Shown here: positions 360 through 22,850 of the stretch, piece by piece
Layout of the letters: every line of letters starts with the position of its first letter
Numbering within the stretch: position 1 is the stretch's first letter
NCBI RefSeq assembly: GCF_024723255.1
Contig: NZ_JANIAC010000001.1
Coordinates: 1,007,548-1,071,547, forward strand
Direction of reading: 5' to 3'
DNA length: 64,000 nucleotides
From: Aestuariibaculum sp. M13
Lineage (GTDB): Bacteria > Bacteroidota > Bacteroidia > Flavobacteriales > Flavobacteriaceae
Translations under genes and position numbers: made by a program
The notes under the pieces: generated by a model
Told to the model about the DNA's origin: nothing
Seen by the model: only the letters and a program-made list of their open reading frames with translations
Database searches by the model: none

Positions 360-379
360 GGTTACGATTAAAAAAGAAT

Positions 380-486
380 AAAGGTTACTCGGACTGAGCA
401 ACCTTTATTAACCATTAAACTAACCAAAAAAATATTAAATATGAAAAACTGTAATTAGAACTGTTGTAGTGCTTTGCTCTAATTAC
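380..486 (-). ncRNA. Predicted small RNA, diverged copy 0 of a five-copy family
   Basis: Read on the minus strand from about 486, the RNA starts with a 9-bp hairpin (451-459 pairs with 478-486). A mostly unpaired stretch shares TTTTTCAT and GGTTAGTTTAA with the other copies. It ends in an 11-bp terminator hairpin (380-390 with 396-406) followed by a U-rich tail (about 366-379). One terminator pair is A-C on the plus strand but G-U on the minus strand, which supports minus transcription. The 5' hairpin differs in sequence from the other copies but sits in the same place. No reading frame is conserved. Function is unknown; this is a structural prediction. Confidence 0.7.
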
Positions 487-490
487 ATAA

Positions 491-535
491 CAAAGATACG
501 CTCACTTTACAGATTACTTCACGACATTGCATGTC
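491..535 (-). promoter_or_regulatory. Palindrome-N24-TAnnTTTG promoter of sRNA copy 0
   Basis: The minus strand has a TATCTTTG -7 box (491-498). A perfect palindrome GACAT-TGC-ATGTC (523-535) lies exactly 24 bp upstream. No TTTG -33 box is visible at the usual spacing. The palindrome centre falls near -42, a usual position for an activator that replaces the -33 contact. Confidence 0.72.
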
Positions 536-559
536 CGGTTAAAATCAAATATGTATTAA

Positions 560-590
560 AAAGAAAAGAGCAGCACTTTCGTACTGCTCC
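560..590 (-). terminator. Terminator of the 80-residue gene
   Basis: The stem GAGCAG/CTGCTC (568-573 with 584-589, extended by inner pairs) is followed on the minus strand by a T-rich run. It ends the transcript of the small gene at 621-863 and makes it a stand-alone unit of about 320 nt. Confidence 0.75.
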
Positions 591-620
591 TTCAAAGAAT
601 CAATCTAAACTTGCTATTAA

Positions 621-863
621 TCAATCCCCGTAAAACATGATATGTTTTACTACAAGTTTTTGTCGACCTGTGAGTTCTCTACCATTAACATCTTCTAAAA
701 CTTCAACCACTTTTTCAAAAGAAAATTCCGGTAGAATTTCATTTTTATAATCAATTTTCAAAAACAGCATTTTTAAAGCACTTACAGCTTTCTTCATTTT
801 TTCATCTGGTCGTAATTGCTTTTCAAAAGCACACTCTAATTCTTTCAACTTAAAAAGTAACAT
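621..863 (-). CDS. Small protein of unknown function, divergent from the HTH regulator
   Basis: This 80-residue protein has no signal peptide or membrane segment. It is rich in Lys and Glu (for example KLKELECAFEKQL and KVVEVLEDVN) and looks mainly helical; one Cys is present near residue 11. I do not recognise a family. It is a real gene rather than a shadow: it has a -7 box TAATTTTG (890-897) with a predicted 22-nt leader and its own terminator (560-590). The box lies 24 bp from the same palindrome that precedes all five sRNA copies, so it should be co-regulated with them. The palindrome is shared with the divergent regulator at 983. It could be an effector, a modulator of the regulator, or an RNA-binding protein; nothing decides this. 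Confidence 0.65.
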   Translation of the reverse strand: MLLFKLKELECAFEKQLRPDEKMKKAVSALKMLFLKIDYKNEILPEFSFEKVVEVLEDVNGRELTGRQKLVVKHIMFYGD

Positions 864-889
864 GTTTTGTTATATCCTGTTTTCTTAAG

Positions 890-934
890 CAAAATTAATA
901 AGGGTATACGTTTTAGAATACGACACAAGATGTC
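890..934 (-). promoter_or_regulatory. Palindrome-N24-TAnnTTTG promoter of the 80-residue gene; also overlaps the regulator promoter
   Basis: The minus strand has TAATTTTG (890-897), a 24-bp spacer and the palindrome GACAC-AAG-ATGTC (922-934, one mismatch in the arms). On the plus strand the same palindrome lies 19 bp upstream of a TATATTTA box (954-961) in front of the regulator gene. A protein bound here would touch both promoters, as expected for an autoregulated divergent pair. Confidence 0.7.
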
Positions 935-982
935 AGCAACCAATCATTTTAATTATATTTACCTTATAACTAACTCATAAGC

Positions 983-1861
983 ATGAAAAAATATAATTCC
1001 ATAGGTGAACTTTTTACAGATTACAGGGAGTTTTACAATTTATCGCAATCTGATTTTGCATCTGAATTAAATGTCGATTTAAGAACGGTTCAGCGCTGGG
1101 AAAAAGACTTAACATTAATCAAGTCTGAAAAAGAAGAAGACATCGTATTAAACACGCTTATGCCCTATCAGCTTATTCATAATTTAAATGCTGCTGTACC
1201 CATTCCGACATTTTACGACTTTAAAACCCGAAAATATTCACTTTCAGCTCAAACCAACGACTTACCTAAATTAGAATGGTATCTCGATCAAATTAATGTC
1301 GTTTCGAACAACTTAAGAACCATAGATTTTGATTTCGACATTAAATACTTAGAACACTTTATTGACTCACAGAAAAAAGATGACACCTTCCTAAATCATG
1401 AATTAATAAAAGAGGCTATAAGGTTACTACCAGAACTTAATTTTGTTTTTACAGGAAAAAGTGGCTACTACGCCGGACACAGCATAGTACTCCCCTTAAA
1501 AAAAGAGACATATTTAAAACTTAAAAACAAGGAGATTAACGTAAAGCAATTAAGAGCAAACGATTTAACAAATTATAAAAATTTAGAACAACCCATTTTC
1601 TTTAGATATGACATAACGGGTGACTGTAACGACTCTCTTTTTTATGTTATGGCCCAGTTTTTTAGGTTTTTTAAAAATATTGAAAATAAAAACTATATTA
1701 TGTCATCGTACACAGAACGTGACGATACCTACGATTTAAATTTACAAATAGGGTTTAACATTTTATGGGAAGATAAAGAATTACAAAACCAATTAAATTT
1801 AGATCATCCTCCTCGATTTATGGAAGGTAGCTTTGAAGAATTCTTTTCTAAACTGGAATAA
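983..1861 (+). CDS. HTH regulator with a large C-terminal (possibly GNAT-like) domain
   Basis: Residues 1-45 hold a helix-turn-helix (LSQSDFASELNVDLRTVQRWEK, residues about 19-40, of the XRE/lambda-repressor type). The remaining 240 residues form a second domain. The run IVLPLKKETYLKLKNKEI, then FFRYDIT, a long helix, and a final GFNILWEDK segment recalls the GNAT acetyltransferase fold, but I see no clear acetyl-CoA P-loop, so this is tentative. It is predicted to be cytosolic. It is divergent from 621-863 across a 119-bp gap containing the family palindrome. That makes it the obvious candidate to bind GACAT-N3-ATGTC sites and control the sRNA family; this is inference from position. The ATG at 983 follows a TATATTTA box by about 22 bp. 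Confidence 0.75.
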   Translation: MKKYNSIGELFTDYREFYNLSQSDFASELNVDLRTVQRWEKDLTLIKSEKEEDIVLNTLMPYQLIHNLNAAVPIPTFYDFKTRKYSLSAQTNDLPKLEWYLDQINVVSNNLRTIDFDFDIKYLEHFIDSQKKDDTFLNHELIKEAIRLLPELNFVFTGKSGYYAGHSIVLPLKKETYLKLKNKEINVKQLRANDLTNYKNLEQPIFFRYDITGDCNDSLFYVMAQFFRFFKNIENKNYIMSSYTERDDTYDLNLQIGFNILWEDKELQNQLNLDHPPRFMEGSFEEFFSKLE

Positions 1862-1879
1862 TTTATCGCAAAACGAAGA

Positions 1880-1964
1880 AAGGCCACAGTAGCACCCTTC
1901 AATACCAAACTGCAGCCTTAAACTAACCAAACCAACTATGAAAAAACTTTTACTACGTTTTTAC
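1880..1964 (-). ncRNA. Predicted small RNA, copy 1
   Basis: The minus-strand transcript is predicted to start near 1964. It has a 5' hairpin (AAAAAC paired with GTTTTT), the conserved core TTTTTCATAGTTGGTTTGG followed by TTAGTTTAA, and a terminator stem (1880-1890 with 1909-1919) followed by a T-rich tail. Two stem positions are C-A and A-C mismatches on the plus strand but U-G and G-U pairs on the minus strand. It converges on the regulator gene, which ends at 1861. Confidence 0.72.
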
Positions 1965-1968
1965 ACTA

Positions 1969-2013
1969 CAAATTTACGTTAGAAATCCATGGTAATTTAC
2001 GACATAAGATGTC
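1969..2013 (-). promoter_or_regulatory. Palindrome-N24-TAnnTTTG promoter of sRNA copy 1
   Basis: TAAATTTG on the minus strand (1969-1976), a 24-bp spacer, then the perfect palindrome GACAT-AAG-ATGTC (2001-2013). Upstream of it, 2014-2154 contains no gene or other feature I can support. Confidence 0.75.
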
Positions 2014-2154
2014 ATCATCCTTTTAGTCCCCATTCCCTTTATTATATCCATAAAAAAAGCCATTAAAAAAGTGTAGTTGTGTTTATATGGGAAAACATTA
2101 TTTCAAGAAATTGGTTTAAATAGACACGTGCGACAAAACGCTTTAAAATGAAGA

Positions 2155-2239
2155 AAGGCCACAGTAGCACCCTAATACGCTTACTGTAGCCTTAAACTAA
2201 CCAAACCAACTTATGAAAAACTTTTTACTACGTTTTTAC
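2155..2239 (-). ncRNA. Predicted small RNA, copy 2
   Basis: Nearly the same as copy 1: a 5' AAAAAC/GTTTTT hairpin, core CATAAGTTGGTTTGGTTAG, and terminator stem 2155-2165 with 2183-2193 plus a T-rich tail on the minus strand. One stem position is C-A on the plus strand and U-G on the minus. No gene follows before copy 1, so this copy cannot be a leader of a protein gene. Confidence 0.72.
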
Positions 2240-2243
2240 ATTA

Positions 2244-2288
2244 CAAATTTACGTTAGAAATCCATGATGGTTTACGACATAAGATGTC
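2244..2288 (-). promoter_or_regulatory. Palindrome-N24-TAnnTTTG promoter of sRNA copy 2
   Basis: TAAATTTG on the minus strand (2244-2251), a 24-bp spacer, and the perfect palindrome GACAT-AAG-ATGTC (2276-2288). Confidence 0.75.
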
Positions 2289-2327
2289 ATCATCTTTTTA
2301 ATAATTATTCACTTAATTCTATTGCAC

Positions 2328-2353
2328 AAAAAAAGCTCCTATTTCTAAGAGCT
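2328..2353 (-). terminator. Terminator of the haem-binding lipoprotein gene
   Basis: The stem AGCTCCTA (2334-2341) pairs with TAAGAGCT (2346-2353). The one imperfect pair is a G-U pair on the minus strand. A run of seven T follows on the minus strand, downstream of the gene that ends at 2384. Confidence 0.7.
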
Positions 2354-2383
2354 CTATATTCTATAATTTATTTCCATTATTAA

Positions 2384-2755
2384 CTATTCTGAAAAACCGC
2401 TAGCAACCCATTTTTTTAACATGGTAATTTCTTCAGCAGTTAAAGCCGGCTTTTTACTTTTAAAAGGCATATACTTTTTTTCTGTAACAGGTAACTCCAC
2501 ACGAGTTATTATATCCTCAATATTATTCTTTACAGCACCATAAGTATCTAAATACTTCTTTTTACCGTTTTCCGGAAAATGGCAAGGTGTACAGCTGCGC
2601 TCCATAACAGGAGCAATATGCTTAGCGTAACTCACAGCAGGCTCTTCCTGTTTTACTGTTGTTTCTTTTGAAGATTTACAATATTGTAATGTTGAAACTG
2701 TTAAGGTTAAAAGAGCTAAAGGAATTAATTTATTGGTTAATAGCTTAAATTTCAT
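2384..2755 (-). CDS. Haem-binding (cytochrome c-like) lipoprotein
   Basis: This 123-residue protein has an N-terminal export signal (hydrophobic LIPLALLTLTVSTL) followed by a cysteine at about residue 26 (LQYC), a probable lipobox. A single CTPCH motif at about residues 55-59 is a CxxCH c-type haem site. A short mono-haem domain follows with MPF as a possible axial-Met region and a typical final helix (LTAEEITMLKKWVASG). It is probably periplasmic, lipid-anchored and redox-related. The gene starts about 60 bp downstream of the terminator of sRNA copy 3, so the sRNA might act as a conditional leader; read-through is not shown. Confidence 0.75.
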   Translation of the reverse strand: MKFKLLTNKLIPLALLTLTVSTLQYCKSSKETTVKQEEPAVSYAKHIAPVMERSCTPCHFPENGKKKYLDTYGAVKNNIEDIITRVELPVTEKKYMPFKSKKPALTAEEITMLKKWVASGFSE

Positions 2756-2817
2756 AAAAAAGGTTGATTTGAATGTTTACACAGCAATATATGAAATAAA
2801 AAAATTACTATAATAAA

Positions 2818-2905
2818 AAAGCTACAGTAAAGCACCCTAATACGCTTACCTGTAGCTTTAAACTAACCAAACCAACTTATGAAAAACTTTTTACTACGTT
2901 TTTAC
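2818..2905 (-). ncRNA. Predicted small RNA, copy 3
   Basis: Minus-strand RNA with a 5' AAAAAC/GTTTTT hairpin, the conserved core, and a perfect 10-bp terminator stem (2818-2827 with 2850-2859) followed by a run of T. The stem sequence (AGCTACAG/CTGTAGCT) differs from copies 1 and 2 by paired changes. It lies just upstream of the lipoprotein gene in the same orientation. Confidence 0.72.
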
Positions 2906-2909
2906 ATTA

Positions 2910-2954
2910 CAAATTTACGGTAGAAATCCATGTTGGTTTACGACATTAAATGTC
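2910..2954 (-). promoter_or_regulatory. Palindrome-N24-TAnnTTTG promoter of sRNA copy 3
   Basis: TAAATTTG (2910-2917), a 24-bp spacer, and the perfect palindrome GACAT-TAA-ATGTC (2942-2954) on the minus strand. The central triplet differs from copies 1 and 2 while the arms are unchanged. Confidence 0.75.
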
Positions 2955-3010
2955 ATAACTAATCTGTTAGAGAGTTATACATTTAACGTATTAATATGAT
3001 ATAACTAAGA

Positions 3011-4567
3011 TTAAAATTCTTCTCTTGACCAATCCGCCTTTTTAACTAAATCTGGATGACCAGGGACATAGTCAAGTCCTTTAGAAAATATATGATAAGA
3101 CTTTGGATAATTATTCTTAAAATAATAATAGTTTCCTGCCTTTAAATATAATTCAGATATTAAATATTTGTTTACATCATTTAATATATCGTTTCCATCC
3201 ATTACCTCTTCAAATTTACTTAAATACTCTGCAGCCAATGAAATCTCCTTATTCTTATAATTCATTAGTGACATATTACCATAAAAATGAGCCAGACTTA
3301 TAAAATACCTCTTATTCGATTTTAAAAACTCATATTTATCAGTCATTACAAGAAAATTTTCAAGAGATCTCAAATCATACATAGAAAGCATTACTTTTTT
3401 AAAGCAAGCATATTCAATTATTTCCTTTGATATTTTACTATTCTTATTAATATTTAATATGTTATCACAATAACGCAACGCATTATCAAGTTCCTCATCT
3501 GTAGCAGCCTGTCTTGCTAAATATTCATATAAATATTCAACAGCTTCATTTCTCACCTTATCATTAGAAACAGCATTAAACTTAACAATCACTTCTTCAA
3601 TAAAATTTACATCATTTTCATCATATTGAGTAATTTTAAATAAACTTGATTTTAATTGGTGCAAGGAATAATCTTCAGGGTATTTGGAAATTTTTATTAA
3701 TTCAATTAAATAGTCTACATCTTCTTGAGTTTTAAATTCAAGATCGTTAACTTTTGTATACATTATTGTTTTAAGAATAGGCTTAATTAAAGGTGACGAA
3801 TAAAAAACCTTCGCTTTTATAAGATTATTAGAAGCTTCATCATATTTCAACTCGTTTAAATGAGTCAATCCCTTATTATAATATTGCATCCCTATCAATA
3901 CACTTTTTTCAAGAAATTCTTTTCCATAATAATATTCTTCATAAAAACTCATATATCCTTTTTCTGAAACCTCTTCCTGAGTCACTAACTTATAAGCAAT
4001 AAGCTCATCTACGATTGTTTTTACTTCAGTTTCTTTTGGCACACTATAACCATAAGCCCCAGGAGCTGTAGTCTCTAAATATATTTTATATGAATCGGGA
4101 TACGCTATTAAAAACACATGGGAGGGTGTTTCTTTAACATGATAAGGTATATTTAAATTATCGAAAACAAATACATATAGCGCAGTAGCGGTAACACAAT
4201 TGTAAGTACCATCTTTAAAAATATTATGAAAATAAGAATCCAGATTATACTTTTTTAAAAATTTATCATGTATTACATCATAAATAACCTTAACACGCTT
4301 AATTTCTTTTTTATCTTTATCTTCTTTTTGAGGAAGATTTTTTATTACAGCAAGTAGTTCTTCTCTATAGGCGATTACCTTTTCCTTATTCATTACAGAA
4401 TCTATAGCAAAAAGACTTTCTAAAAAATTATAGTTAATGGAATCTGCTTTAAACTCTTTGAATATTGACTCTTCAAAATCAGAAATATAAGTTTGACTAT
4501 ATAAATTACTAAAGCCAAATAAAAAAACAAAAAACCTAAATACGTGCAAACCTTTCACTTTAAACAT
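3011..4567 (-). CDS. Exported transglutaminase-like protein with helical repeat C-terminus
   Basis: This 518-residue protein has a signal peptide (FRFFVFLFGFSNLYSQ). Residues about 120-175 contain NCVTATALYVF, then ETPSHVFL, then an acidic position before TTAPG. This Cys-His-acid order and spacing resembles the transglutaminase-like/papain-type core. From about residue 225 the sequence is made of helix pairs that look like TPR-type repeats (for example YYFKNNYPKSYHIFSKGLDYVPGHPDL). It is probably periplasmic or surface-exposed; no substrate can be named. Codon use is markedly more AT-rich than in the housekeeping genes to the right, consistent with recent acquisition. It starts about 110 bp downstream of sRNA copy 4. 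Confidence 0.6.
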   Translation of the reverse strand: MFKVKGLHVFRFFVFLFGFSNLYSQTYISDFEESIFKEFKADSINYNFLESLFAIDSVMNKEKVIAYREELLAVIKNLPQKEDKDKKEIKRVKVIYDVIHDKFLKKYNLDSYFHNIFKDGTYNCVTATALYVFVFDNLNIPYHVKETPSHVFLIAYPDSYKIYLETTAPGAYGYSVPKETEVKTIVDELIAYKLVTQEEVSEKGYMSFYEEYYYGKEFLEKSVLIGMQYYNKGLTHLNELKYDEASNNLIKAKVFYSSPLIKPILKTIMYTKVNDLEFKTQEDVDYLIELIKISKYPEDYSLHQLKSSLFKITQYDENDVNFIEEVIVKFNAVSNDKVRNEAVEYLYEYLARQAATDEELDNALRYCDNILNINKNSKISKEIIEYACFKKVMLSMYDLRSLENFLVMTDKYEFLKSNKRYFISLAHFYGNMSLMNYKNKEISLAAEYLSKFEEVMDGNDILNDVNKYLISELYLKAGNYYYFKNNYPKSYHIFSKGLDYVPGHPDLVKKADWSREEF

Positions 4568-4678
4568 AATAAACTTAAATTAGCAAATTAACTAAATGTA
4601 AGCAAAACAACACATTTTAATAAAAAATATCACCGAAATATTTCTAAAAAGATTAAAGCTTTAGTTGATAAAAATACA

Positions 4679-4766
4679 AAAGCTACAGTGAAGCACCCTA
4701 ATACGCTTAACTGTAGCTTTAAACTAACCAAACCAACTTATGAAAAAACTTTTACTACGTTTTTAC
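4679..4766 (-). ncRNA. Predicted small RNA, copy 4
   Basis: Minus-strand RNA with a 5' hairpin (4744-4749 with 4759-4764), the core CATAAGTTGGTTTGGTTAG, and a perfect 11-bp terminator stem (4679-4689 with 4710-4720) followed by T-rich sequence. The terminator loop (about 20 nt, including GTATTAGGGTG) is shared by copies 2-4. The interval 4568-4678 between it and the next gene holds no other feature. Confidence 0.72.
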
Positions 4767-4770
4767 ATTA

Positions 4771-4815
4771 CAAATTTACGTTAGAAATCCATGTTGGTAT
4801 ACGACAGTGCATGTC
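4771..4815 (-). promoter_or_regulatory. Palindrome-N24-TAnnTTTG promoter of sRNA copy 4
   Basis: TAAATTTG (4771-4778), a 24-bp spacer, and the palindrome GACAG-TGC-ATGTC (4803-4815, one arm mismatch) on the minus strand. Confidence 0.72.
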
Positions 4816-4856
4816 ATAAGATAATTTACCAAAACTTTTGTTCACTTTAGAGCATA

Positions 4857-4884
4857 AAAAAAGCCCTTATTTCTAAGGGCTTTT
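4857..4884 (-). terminator. Terminator after the first tRNA-Asp
   Basis: The stem AAGCCCTTA/TAAGGGCTT (4861-4882) is followed by a T run on the minus strand, about 10 bp past the tRNA 3' end. Confidence 0.75.
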
Positions 4885-4893
4885 GCAATTTTG

Positions 4894-4967
4894 CGGTCTG
4901 GACGGGACTCGAACCCGCGACCTTCGCCGTGACAGGGCGACATTCTAACCAACTGAACTACCAGACC
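4894..4967 (-). tRNA. tRNA-Asp (GTC)
   Basis: A 74-nt cloverleaf on the minus strand. The acceptor stem is GGTCTGG/CCAGACC with a G discriminator, the anticodon loop is CTGTCAC giving GTC, and the T loop is GGTTCGAGTCC. The 3' CCA is not encoded. A TATATTTG promoter box lies at 4985-4992. The copy at 5248 is identical. Confidence 0.95.
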
Positions 4968-5247: not shown

Positions 5248-5321
5248 CGGTCTGGACGGGACTCGAACCCGCGACCTTCGCCGTGACAGGGCGACATTCT
5301 AACCAACTGAACTACCAGACC
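5248..5321 (-). tRNA. tRNA-Asp (GTC), second identical copy
   Basis: Identical 74-nt tRNA to 4894-4967, on the same strand 280 bp away. The flanks are also alike (TGCAATTTTGCGG on the 3' side; CGTTGC, TATTGCGG and TGCAAATATA on the 5' side), so the whole unit including its TATATTTG box (5340-5347) was duplicated. The interval 4968-5247 holds no gene I can support. Confidence 0.95.
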
Positions 5322-13649: not shown

Positions 13650-13696
13650 CACCCTCATTAATAACCGAGGTCGAGAACCTCAAATAATTAATTATT

Positions 13697-22268: not shown

Positions 22269-22850
22269 ATGAAATCAAAAATTTTACTATTCGCCGTAGT
22301 GAGCATGCTCGCTTACTCCTGTAATTCTCGTACTGATAAAAAAACGACAGAAATGGAAGTTGAAACCATAGAGCAAGAACCTATTAATCTTGTTGAACGT
22401 GGCGAATACCTTGTCGATTTAGGAGGATGCCACCATTGTCACTCACCAAAGGTTATGACAGATCATGGCCCTGTTCCAGATTCTAATCGTTTACTATCAG
22501 GTCACCCGTCCGATGAAGTCTTGCCTCCATATGATAAGGAAACCGCTAAAGGTTACGCACTCTTCTCTATGGGATTAACATCTACAACCGGTCCTTGGGG
22601 CACATCTTTTGCGGCTAATTTAACACCTGATGCAAGTGGTATTGGTACATGGAGTGAAGCGCAATTTTTCAAAGCTATACGTGAAGGTAAATCAAAAGGT
22701 CTGGATGGTGGCAGAATGCTGTTACCACCAATGCCATGGCAGGATTTTGCAAAACTTAACGATGAAGACATCAGGGCGATTTTCACGTACTTAAAAAGTC
22801 TACCAGCAGTTGAAAATGTGGTTCCTGCGCCAATTCCTCCCGGTATGTAA
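22269..22850 (+). CDS. Mono-haem cytochrome c lipoprotein
   Basis: This 193-residue protein has a lipoprotein signal (LLFAVVSMLAYSC, lipid Cys at 18) and an acidic linker. One c-type domain begins at ERGEYLVDLGGCHHCHSPK (CxxCH). It contains FAANLTPDASGIGTWSEAQF and PPMPWQDFAKLNDEDIRAIFTYLKSLP, the pattern of cytochromes associated with dehydrogenases. The Met in PPMPW is the likely sixth haem ligand. It is lipid-anchored and exported. Its redox partner is not adjacent. Confidence 0.88.
   Translation: MKSKILLFAVVSMLAYSCNSRTDKKTTEMEVETIEQEPINLVERGEYLVDLGGCHHCHSPKVMTDHGPVPDSNRLLSGHPSDEVLPPYDKETAKGYALFSMGLTSTTGPWGTSFAANLTPDASGIGTWSEAQFFKAIREGKSKGLDGGRMLLPPMPWQDFAKLNDEDIRAIFTYLKSLPAVENVVPAPIPPGM

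Follow-up and report, generated by a model that had tools for sequence, protein, structure and literature searches.

Among described systems, the closest comparison for the elements treated here is FopS of Bacteroides thetaiotaomicron (RF04319), a set of 14 paralogous small RNAs (sRNAs) with a single-stranded 5′ seed and a terminator, which represses SusC translation by pairing with the start codon and works with the protein RbpB (PMC11697453). Here, we analyzed a 64,000-nucleotide stretch of the marine bacterium Aestuariibaculum sp. M13 (contig NZ_JANIAC010000001.1, positions 1,007,548 to 1,071,547), referred to as the window, which carries a cluster of five predicted sRNA genes. Judging from their sequences, these sRNAs probably silence many SusC importers, a large family of sugar transporters of the outer membrane, at once, and one neighbouring regulator apparently switches all five genes. 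Multicopy sRNAs that block start codons are already known; it is the linked regulator and its operator that set this cluster apart, and neither was part of the finding of an earlier note on this DNA.

Both systems comprise multiple paralogous sRNAs in one genome, with a 5′ seed containing GUUUUUCAU that is followed by a Rho-independent terminator. A 5′ seed of the FopS type with UUUUUCAU and a terminator hairpin was found in the present units, its single-strandedness being partial (0.53–0.76). Start-codon pairing on susC-type mRNAs has been shown for FopS and is predicted here. In its leader part the present seed departs from that of FopS, and the FopS seed has no preference for SusC starts in the window's genome. 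Each copy here has its own operator and lies close to a linked regulator, whereas FopS is described with canonical sigma promoters and possibly an unknown regulator (PMC11697453). FopS works with RbpB, whereas no RRM protein of that type was found here (the genome search with RRM_1 was empty at E ≤ 0.001, a Bacteroides control genome being positive). As to Hfq-dependent trans-acting sRNAs, the genome gave no Hfq match at E ≤ 0.001, with 5 of 14 control genomes positive. The FopS covariance model, which scored 78.9 bits on a Bacteroides phage as positive control, gave no match at E ≤ 1 in 380–4900 and none inside the window at E ≤ 10. Membership in FopS was rejected, and the cluster was filed apart because there was no model match, the seed was not interchangeable, and no RRM protein was found. 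Two equal-scoring weak resemblances to the model lie elsewhere in the same genome, outside the window (C3:18093-18177 and C3:97043-97127; 31.7 bits, the gathering score being 56).

Three further sRNAs resemble the present ones in part. GibS of B. thetaiotaomicron pairs with translation initiation regions, and its induction runs through a motif in its promoter that an unidentified factor recognises, but it has two seeds (R1 and R2) and other targets, BT_0771 and BT_3893 (PMC11697453). DonS of Bacteroides fragilis represses a polysaccharide-utilisation locus, and its gene lies divergent to the locus that it targets, whereas the present RNAs are trans-encoded with many predicted targets (PMC11697453). 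Rfp18 of Flavobacterium psychrophilum is likewise an sRNA conserved in flavobacteria for which mRNA pairing is predicted, but it has a strong secondary structure, would pair through its third stem-loop, and has metalloproteases and an adhesin as predicted targets (PMC9723704). No report of SusC-targeting sRNAs in Flavobacteria was found in the open-licence PMC literature among the matches listed.

Five predicted sRNA units with a shared operator motif

The five units lie on the minus strand between positions 370 and 4815 and follow a single design, with four close copies and one divergent copy (copy 0). Each comprises a GACA-N5-TGTC operator, 24 bp, a TAnnTTTG box, about 45 weakly structured nt (longer in copy 0), and a terminator hairpin ending in a T run. 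They look like complete sRNA genes, and as the boxes and the intrinsic terminators face the minus strand, that strand is plausibly the sense strand. From sequence and folds, copy 1 is predicted as an RNA of about 90 nt (1875..1964) with an anti-start core at 1918–1945 in its 5′ part, followed by the terminator hairpin. Copies 2, 3, and 4 would have the same build and span 2150..2239 (core 2192–2220), 2814..2905 (core 2858–2886), and 4676..4766 (core 4719–4747). In the predicted copy 0 (370..486), the 5′ part is longer, forms an extra hairpin, and includes UUUGGUUAG; the unit also has TTTTTCAT...TTTGGTTAGTTTAA (415–448) and the terminator. The 5′ parts of all five units contain UUUUUCAU, to which copies 1–4 add GUUGGUUUGGUUAG.

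The earlier note had described the minus-strand core as antisense to a translation start. This was confirmed: in four units, and in part in the fifth, the core is the complement of a flavobacterial start in idealised form (leader, AUG, AAAAA). The core letters quoted for copies 1–4 are exact on the plus strand of copies 2–4, which reads TTAAACTAACCAAACCAACTTATGAAAAA at the core positions given above, while copy 1 reads ...CCAACTATGAAAAA and is one base shorter. Copy 0 does keep both core ends, TTTTTCAT and GGTTAGTTTAA, with ATTTAATATTTTTTT between them on the minus strand. The description of the core as unpaired held in part. Its mean unpaired probability in the predicted folds is 0.53–0.70 in copies 1–4 and 0.76 in copy 0, and it is partly paired in copies 1–4 because the minimum-energy folds join the 5′ end and the core in a weak helix beside the strong terminator hairpin.

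The consensus from a first alignment, made on 19 RNAs, was weak (6 pairs, −1.2 kcal/mol) because five RNAs from Tamlana carry a different, longer terminator. After these five were dropped, 14 sequences remained, namely four window copies and 10 relatives, with copy 0 and a long A. suncheonense copy standing outside both alignments. In the 14-sequence alignment of the terminator stem, 99.3% of the cells are paired and 12 cells carry two-sided changes; neither this number nor the covariation score was reached by any of 500 shuffles.

The operator–promoter pattern occurs at six sites in the 4.16-Mb genome, all in the cluster, and the reversed control at none; the six sites belong to the five sRNAs and to the gap between the regulator gene and a gene for an 80-aa protein. 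The copy 0 promoter consists of the operator, N24, and TATCTTTG at 491..535 (genome C1:1008038-1008082), and the genome search placed the operator with the TAAATTTG promoter at 1969..2013, 2244..2288, 2910..2954, and 4771..4815 for copies 1 to 4, all on the minus strand. An operator with four central bases was rejected for its wrong spacing (1 match versus 2 in the control), and five bases were used. The sixth site (890..934, minus strand) carries the same operator with TAATTTTG and lies, according to pattern search and gene order, between the plus-strand regulator gene and the minus-strand gene of the 80-aa protein. It would serve as the promoter of the latter and is a possible site of regulator autoregulation. 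The 80-aa protein (621..863, minus strand), divergent from the regulator, had no Pfam match at E ≤ 1; proteins resembling it were seen at the same place in loci L031–L034 and L039.

The candidate regulator (983..1861, plus strand) is a protein of 292 aa with an N-terminal helix-turn-helix (HTH) and a C-terminal GNAT-like fold. Its HTH_3 match (E 0.002) lies under Pfam's cut-off, and the structure model has a pLDDT of 87.7. The C-terminal part resembles GNAT acetyltransferases, with a best Foldseek E of 3.7e-4 and TM values by target mostly 0.4–0.6. Because the acetyl-CoA loop motif was not seen by eye in the regulator alignment, we infer a sensor role for this domain, which is probably ligand-sensing. 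Among 199 family genomes, 16 have the operator–promoter pattern and 12 the regulator (E ≤ 1e-20); the pattern is present in all 12 genomes with the regulator versus 4 of the 187 without it (Fisher 3e-16).

The sigma-A consensus of Flavobacterium psychrophilum has TAnnTTTG at positions −12 to −5 (PMC9723704). Transcription of the units would therefore begin five bases past the box, with the palindrome centre near −43. This is a usual position for an activator, and inspection of the sRNA promoters by eye showed no standard −33 box.

An Rfam search returned no family matches for the predicted sRNAs. Two identical tRNA genes lie just past copy 4 (4894–4967 and 5248–5321, minus strand), and an S16-Flavobacteria ribosomal protein leader (RF03138) lies at 13657–13692 on the plus strand.

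Complementarity to SusC translation starts

Duplex energies between the core and gene starts from −40 to +20 were calculated with wobble pairs and bulges allowed and were grouped by gene family. The SusC set contained all 40 genes over the TIGR04056 cut-off in the genome, and the background of 332 genes was drawn from the window together with a 400-kb genome sample, including at least one of the 16 TIGR04056 proteins below the cut-off; 107 of the 332 begin with ATGAAA or ATGAAG (ATGAAR genes). The mean energy was −16.98 kcal/mol for the SusC starts versus −11.76 for the 332 genes (p = 1.3e-12) and −13.20 for the ATGAAR genes (p = 3.4e-7). This complementarity goes beyond composition: dinucleotide shuffles of the core reached neither the SusC mean nor the contrast (0/100 in two separate runs), and real SusC leaders gave −11.15 versus −8.23 for their own shuffles (sd 0.35). 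The SusC advantage peaks at −25..+10, is nil at −60..−25, and amounts to at most about 1 kcal/mol in the gene from 0..+35 on, the predicted pairing on SusC mRNAs extending from about −21/−26 to +9/+19. Duplexes of −16 kcal/mol or better in which start codon and sRNA CAU are in register were predicted for 23 of the 40 SusC genes, 31 of the 332 sampled genes, and 22 of the 107 ATGAAR genes.

The best fit was obtained for SusC with long N-terminal extensions (18 genes, L071 included; −20.2, compared with −16.8 for the other 22), some of whose starts pair also with the first nucleotides of the sRNA. The label "STN-type" for this group was dropped, as STN (E ≤ 1e-3) was found in three of nine tested among the 18, one of the three matches lying under Pfam's cut-off. 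The expectation in the earlier note that the RNAs pair with a set of start regions such as those of TonB-dependent receptor genes was supported by computation, with the SusC-like TonB-linked transporters standing out, and the loose match noticed at the cytochrome gene at 22269 proved real (−19.9 kcal/mol, 16th of the 332 sampled genes). The regulator's own start was rejected as a special sRNA target (−16.0 kcal/mol, rank 85/332).

Related RNAs in Aestuariibaculum and Tamlana

Twenty-two predicted transcripts with TTTTTCAT were found behind the operator, 15 in four Aestuariibaculum genomes, the window's genome included, and seven in genome G084. The latter was taken as Tamlana sp. 2_MG-2023, three of its operator sites being equal to those of locus L037, and the Aestuariibaculum placement was made via G115, as its operator sites are identical to those found in A. 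suncheonense locus L032. In 19 of the 22 transcripts TTTTTCAT lies 21–24 nt past the box and in three copy-0 types 42–43 nt past it, and a terminator was called in 21. One A. suncheonense copy (L032 11790, minus strand) carries the same seed after about 80–90 extra 5′ bases.

The seven Tamlana RNAs have the same operator and the same anti-AUG design with other leader seeds, TTTTTTCATAAAGTTAGTTTAGTTTGG or TTTTTCATAAGTTTAAGTTTGGTTAG, which differ from those of Aestuariibaculum. Three of these seeds were tried, and all preferred the starts of 15 Tamlana SusC genes over those of ATGAAR genes (p = 1.4e-2 to 8e-4); for the two seeds that were shuffled, the SusC energy was reached by 0/100 shuffles and the contrast by 5/100 and 2/100. 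The 15 genes are those over the cut-off (17 in total) except L207, a match without the N-terminal part, and C25, with the longer stretch L208 replacing L166. When the cores were swapped, each genus's core fitted the SusC starts of the other genome too, and genus-specific tuning of the seed was dropped, as this test gave no sign of it.

Genome G071 retains GTTTGGTTTGGTTAGTTTGAAGCTACA without the anti-AUG element (L154), and the remaining operator sites lead to small proteins or other kinds of RNA. A second class consists of operator-driven RNAs of about 145 nt with a terminator and without TTTTTCAT that lie some hundreds of bases away from the regulator (L034 9637, L035 9290, L037 9323, L038 9330, L039 9636, L042 9305, and L047 9342).

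Competing explanations and meaning for Flavobacteria

We consider it likely that the cluster is a dedicated sRNA regulon in which regulator-controlled sRNAs block SusC translation. The HTH protein (983–1861) would bind GACA-N5-TGTC near −43, most likely activating the five sRNAs, and their 5′ part would lie antisense to SusC-type starts, with UUUUUCAU over AUGAAAA and GUUGGUUUGGUUAG over a G-poor TAACTAA...AAACTAA-like leader. G–U wobble would allow one seed to suit many C/U leader variants, and pairing would keep ribosomes off many SusC mRNAs simultaneously.

A number of results weigh against this reading. The literal search of the genome suggested in the earlier note failed, CTAACCAAACCAA with up to two mismatches giving 300 matches versus 383 for the reversed control; the core complement has four exact matches, the four copies themselves, and one of its 14 one-mismatch matches has an ATG within 30 bases downstream that opens a reading frame above the 35-codon minimum (81 aa). 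Complementarity beyond chance, which the note had proposed, was shown by the duplex energies grouped by family, not by the string. Gene starts were called mechanically as the first ATG, and SusC leaders are partly related by descent: against ATGAAR genes, 31 SusC representatives at 70% identity give p = 5e-5, 23 at 60% give 2e-3, and 10 at 50% give 0.06. Start codon and sRNA CAU are in register in 33/40 SusC, 156/332 sampled, and 84/107 ATGAAR genes, so that register alone fails to separate SusC from the last group. Copy 0 discriminates SusC weakly (p = 6e-3). The core is predicted to be just 53–76% unpaired, duplex energies take no account of accessibility, and two folded Tamlana RNAs also pair part of their 5′ regions. 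Two of the five stem-alignment measures were unexceptional (97/500 and 129/500 shuffles as good). The reversed control pattern is present once or twice in 13 of the 199 family genomes, and single sites therefore mean little. TTTTTCAT follows within 110 nt at 22 of 83 distinct operator–promoter sites, in Aestuariibaculum and one Tamlana genome alone. The Aestuariibaculum core scored −16.4 on Tamlana SusC starts versus −15.1 to −15.7 for Tamlana's own seeds, and the 145-nt Tamlana RNA (L037) showed no SusC preference (p = 0.18; contrast reached by 10/60 shuffles).

An alternative that we regard as unlikely accepts the sRNAs as real and operator-controlled and takes the core as a generic start blocker for exported-protein genes, matched to an A-rich leader followed by ATGAAAAA and not aimed at SusC. 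Indeed, ATGAAR genes outdo the average gene in pairing energy (−13.2 against −11.8), the register is equally frequent among them and SusC, and several of the top non-SusC matches look like other exported proteins. However, SusC starts beat the ATGAAR genes in energy (p = 3e-7), and the anti-leader part alone still separates SusC from these and from the other genes (2/200 shuffles as good), while the 16 proteins below the SusC cut-off (mean −13.2) do not stand out. It is less probable still that the RNAs mainly sequester something else, a protein or another RNA, with the start complementarity arising as a by-product of U/G-rich composition. In its favour are the broad pairing of such strands with A/C-rich leaders, the lack of a SusC preference in the second class of operator-driven RNAs, and the absence of genus tuning in the swap test, but shuffling the core's dinucleotides abolished the effect (0/100), and the FopS seed, which is likewise U-rich and anti-AUG, has no such preference in this genome. 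A functional plus strand, on which the units would be leaders of tiny open reading frames (resembling MKKLLLRFYITNLR) or gene starts that were copied from TonB receptor genes and have decayed, is scarcely credible and was rejected: by eye, copies 1–4 do have an ATG with an open frame of about 14 codons on that strand, but the orientation of operator, TAnnTTTG box, and terminator at the listed loci is that of the minus strand, the terminator stem covaries, and in Tamlana TTTTTCAT keeps its distance from the promoter though the plus-strand frame differs.

Beyond an sRNA regulon that blocks SusC translation, we tentatively suggest a switch with one regulator and one class of effector. In it, an HTH/GNAT-like protein whose regulon here would comprise the sRNA battery, the 80-aa protein, and perhaps itself might silence many SusC importers without Hfq or an RRM chaperone. 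If so, the FopS strategy may have arisen a second time, independently, with the operator and the anti-AUG element fixed and the leader seed drifting between genera within the tolerance of wobble pairing.

Flavobacteria are major degraders of marine polysaccharides, and this single genome encodes 40 SusC importers over the family cut-off. If the proposed regulon is real, one regulator and a few wobble-tolerant antisense RNAs could turn down the whole importer repertoire at once. The FopS strategy would then extend beyond Bacteroides, and it could operate through a linked transcription factor with none of the known RNA chaperones.

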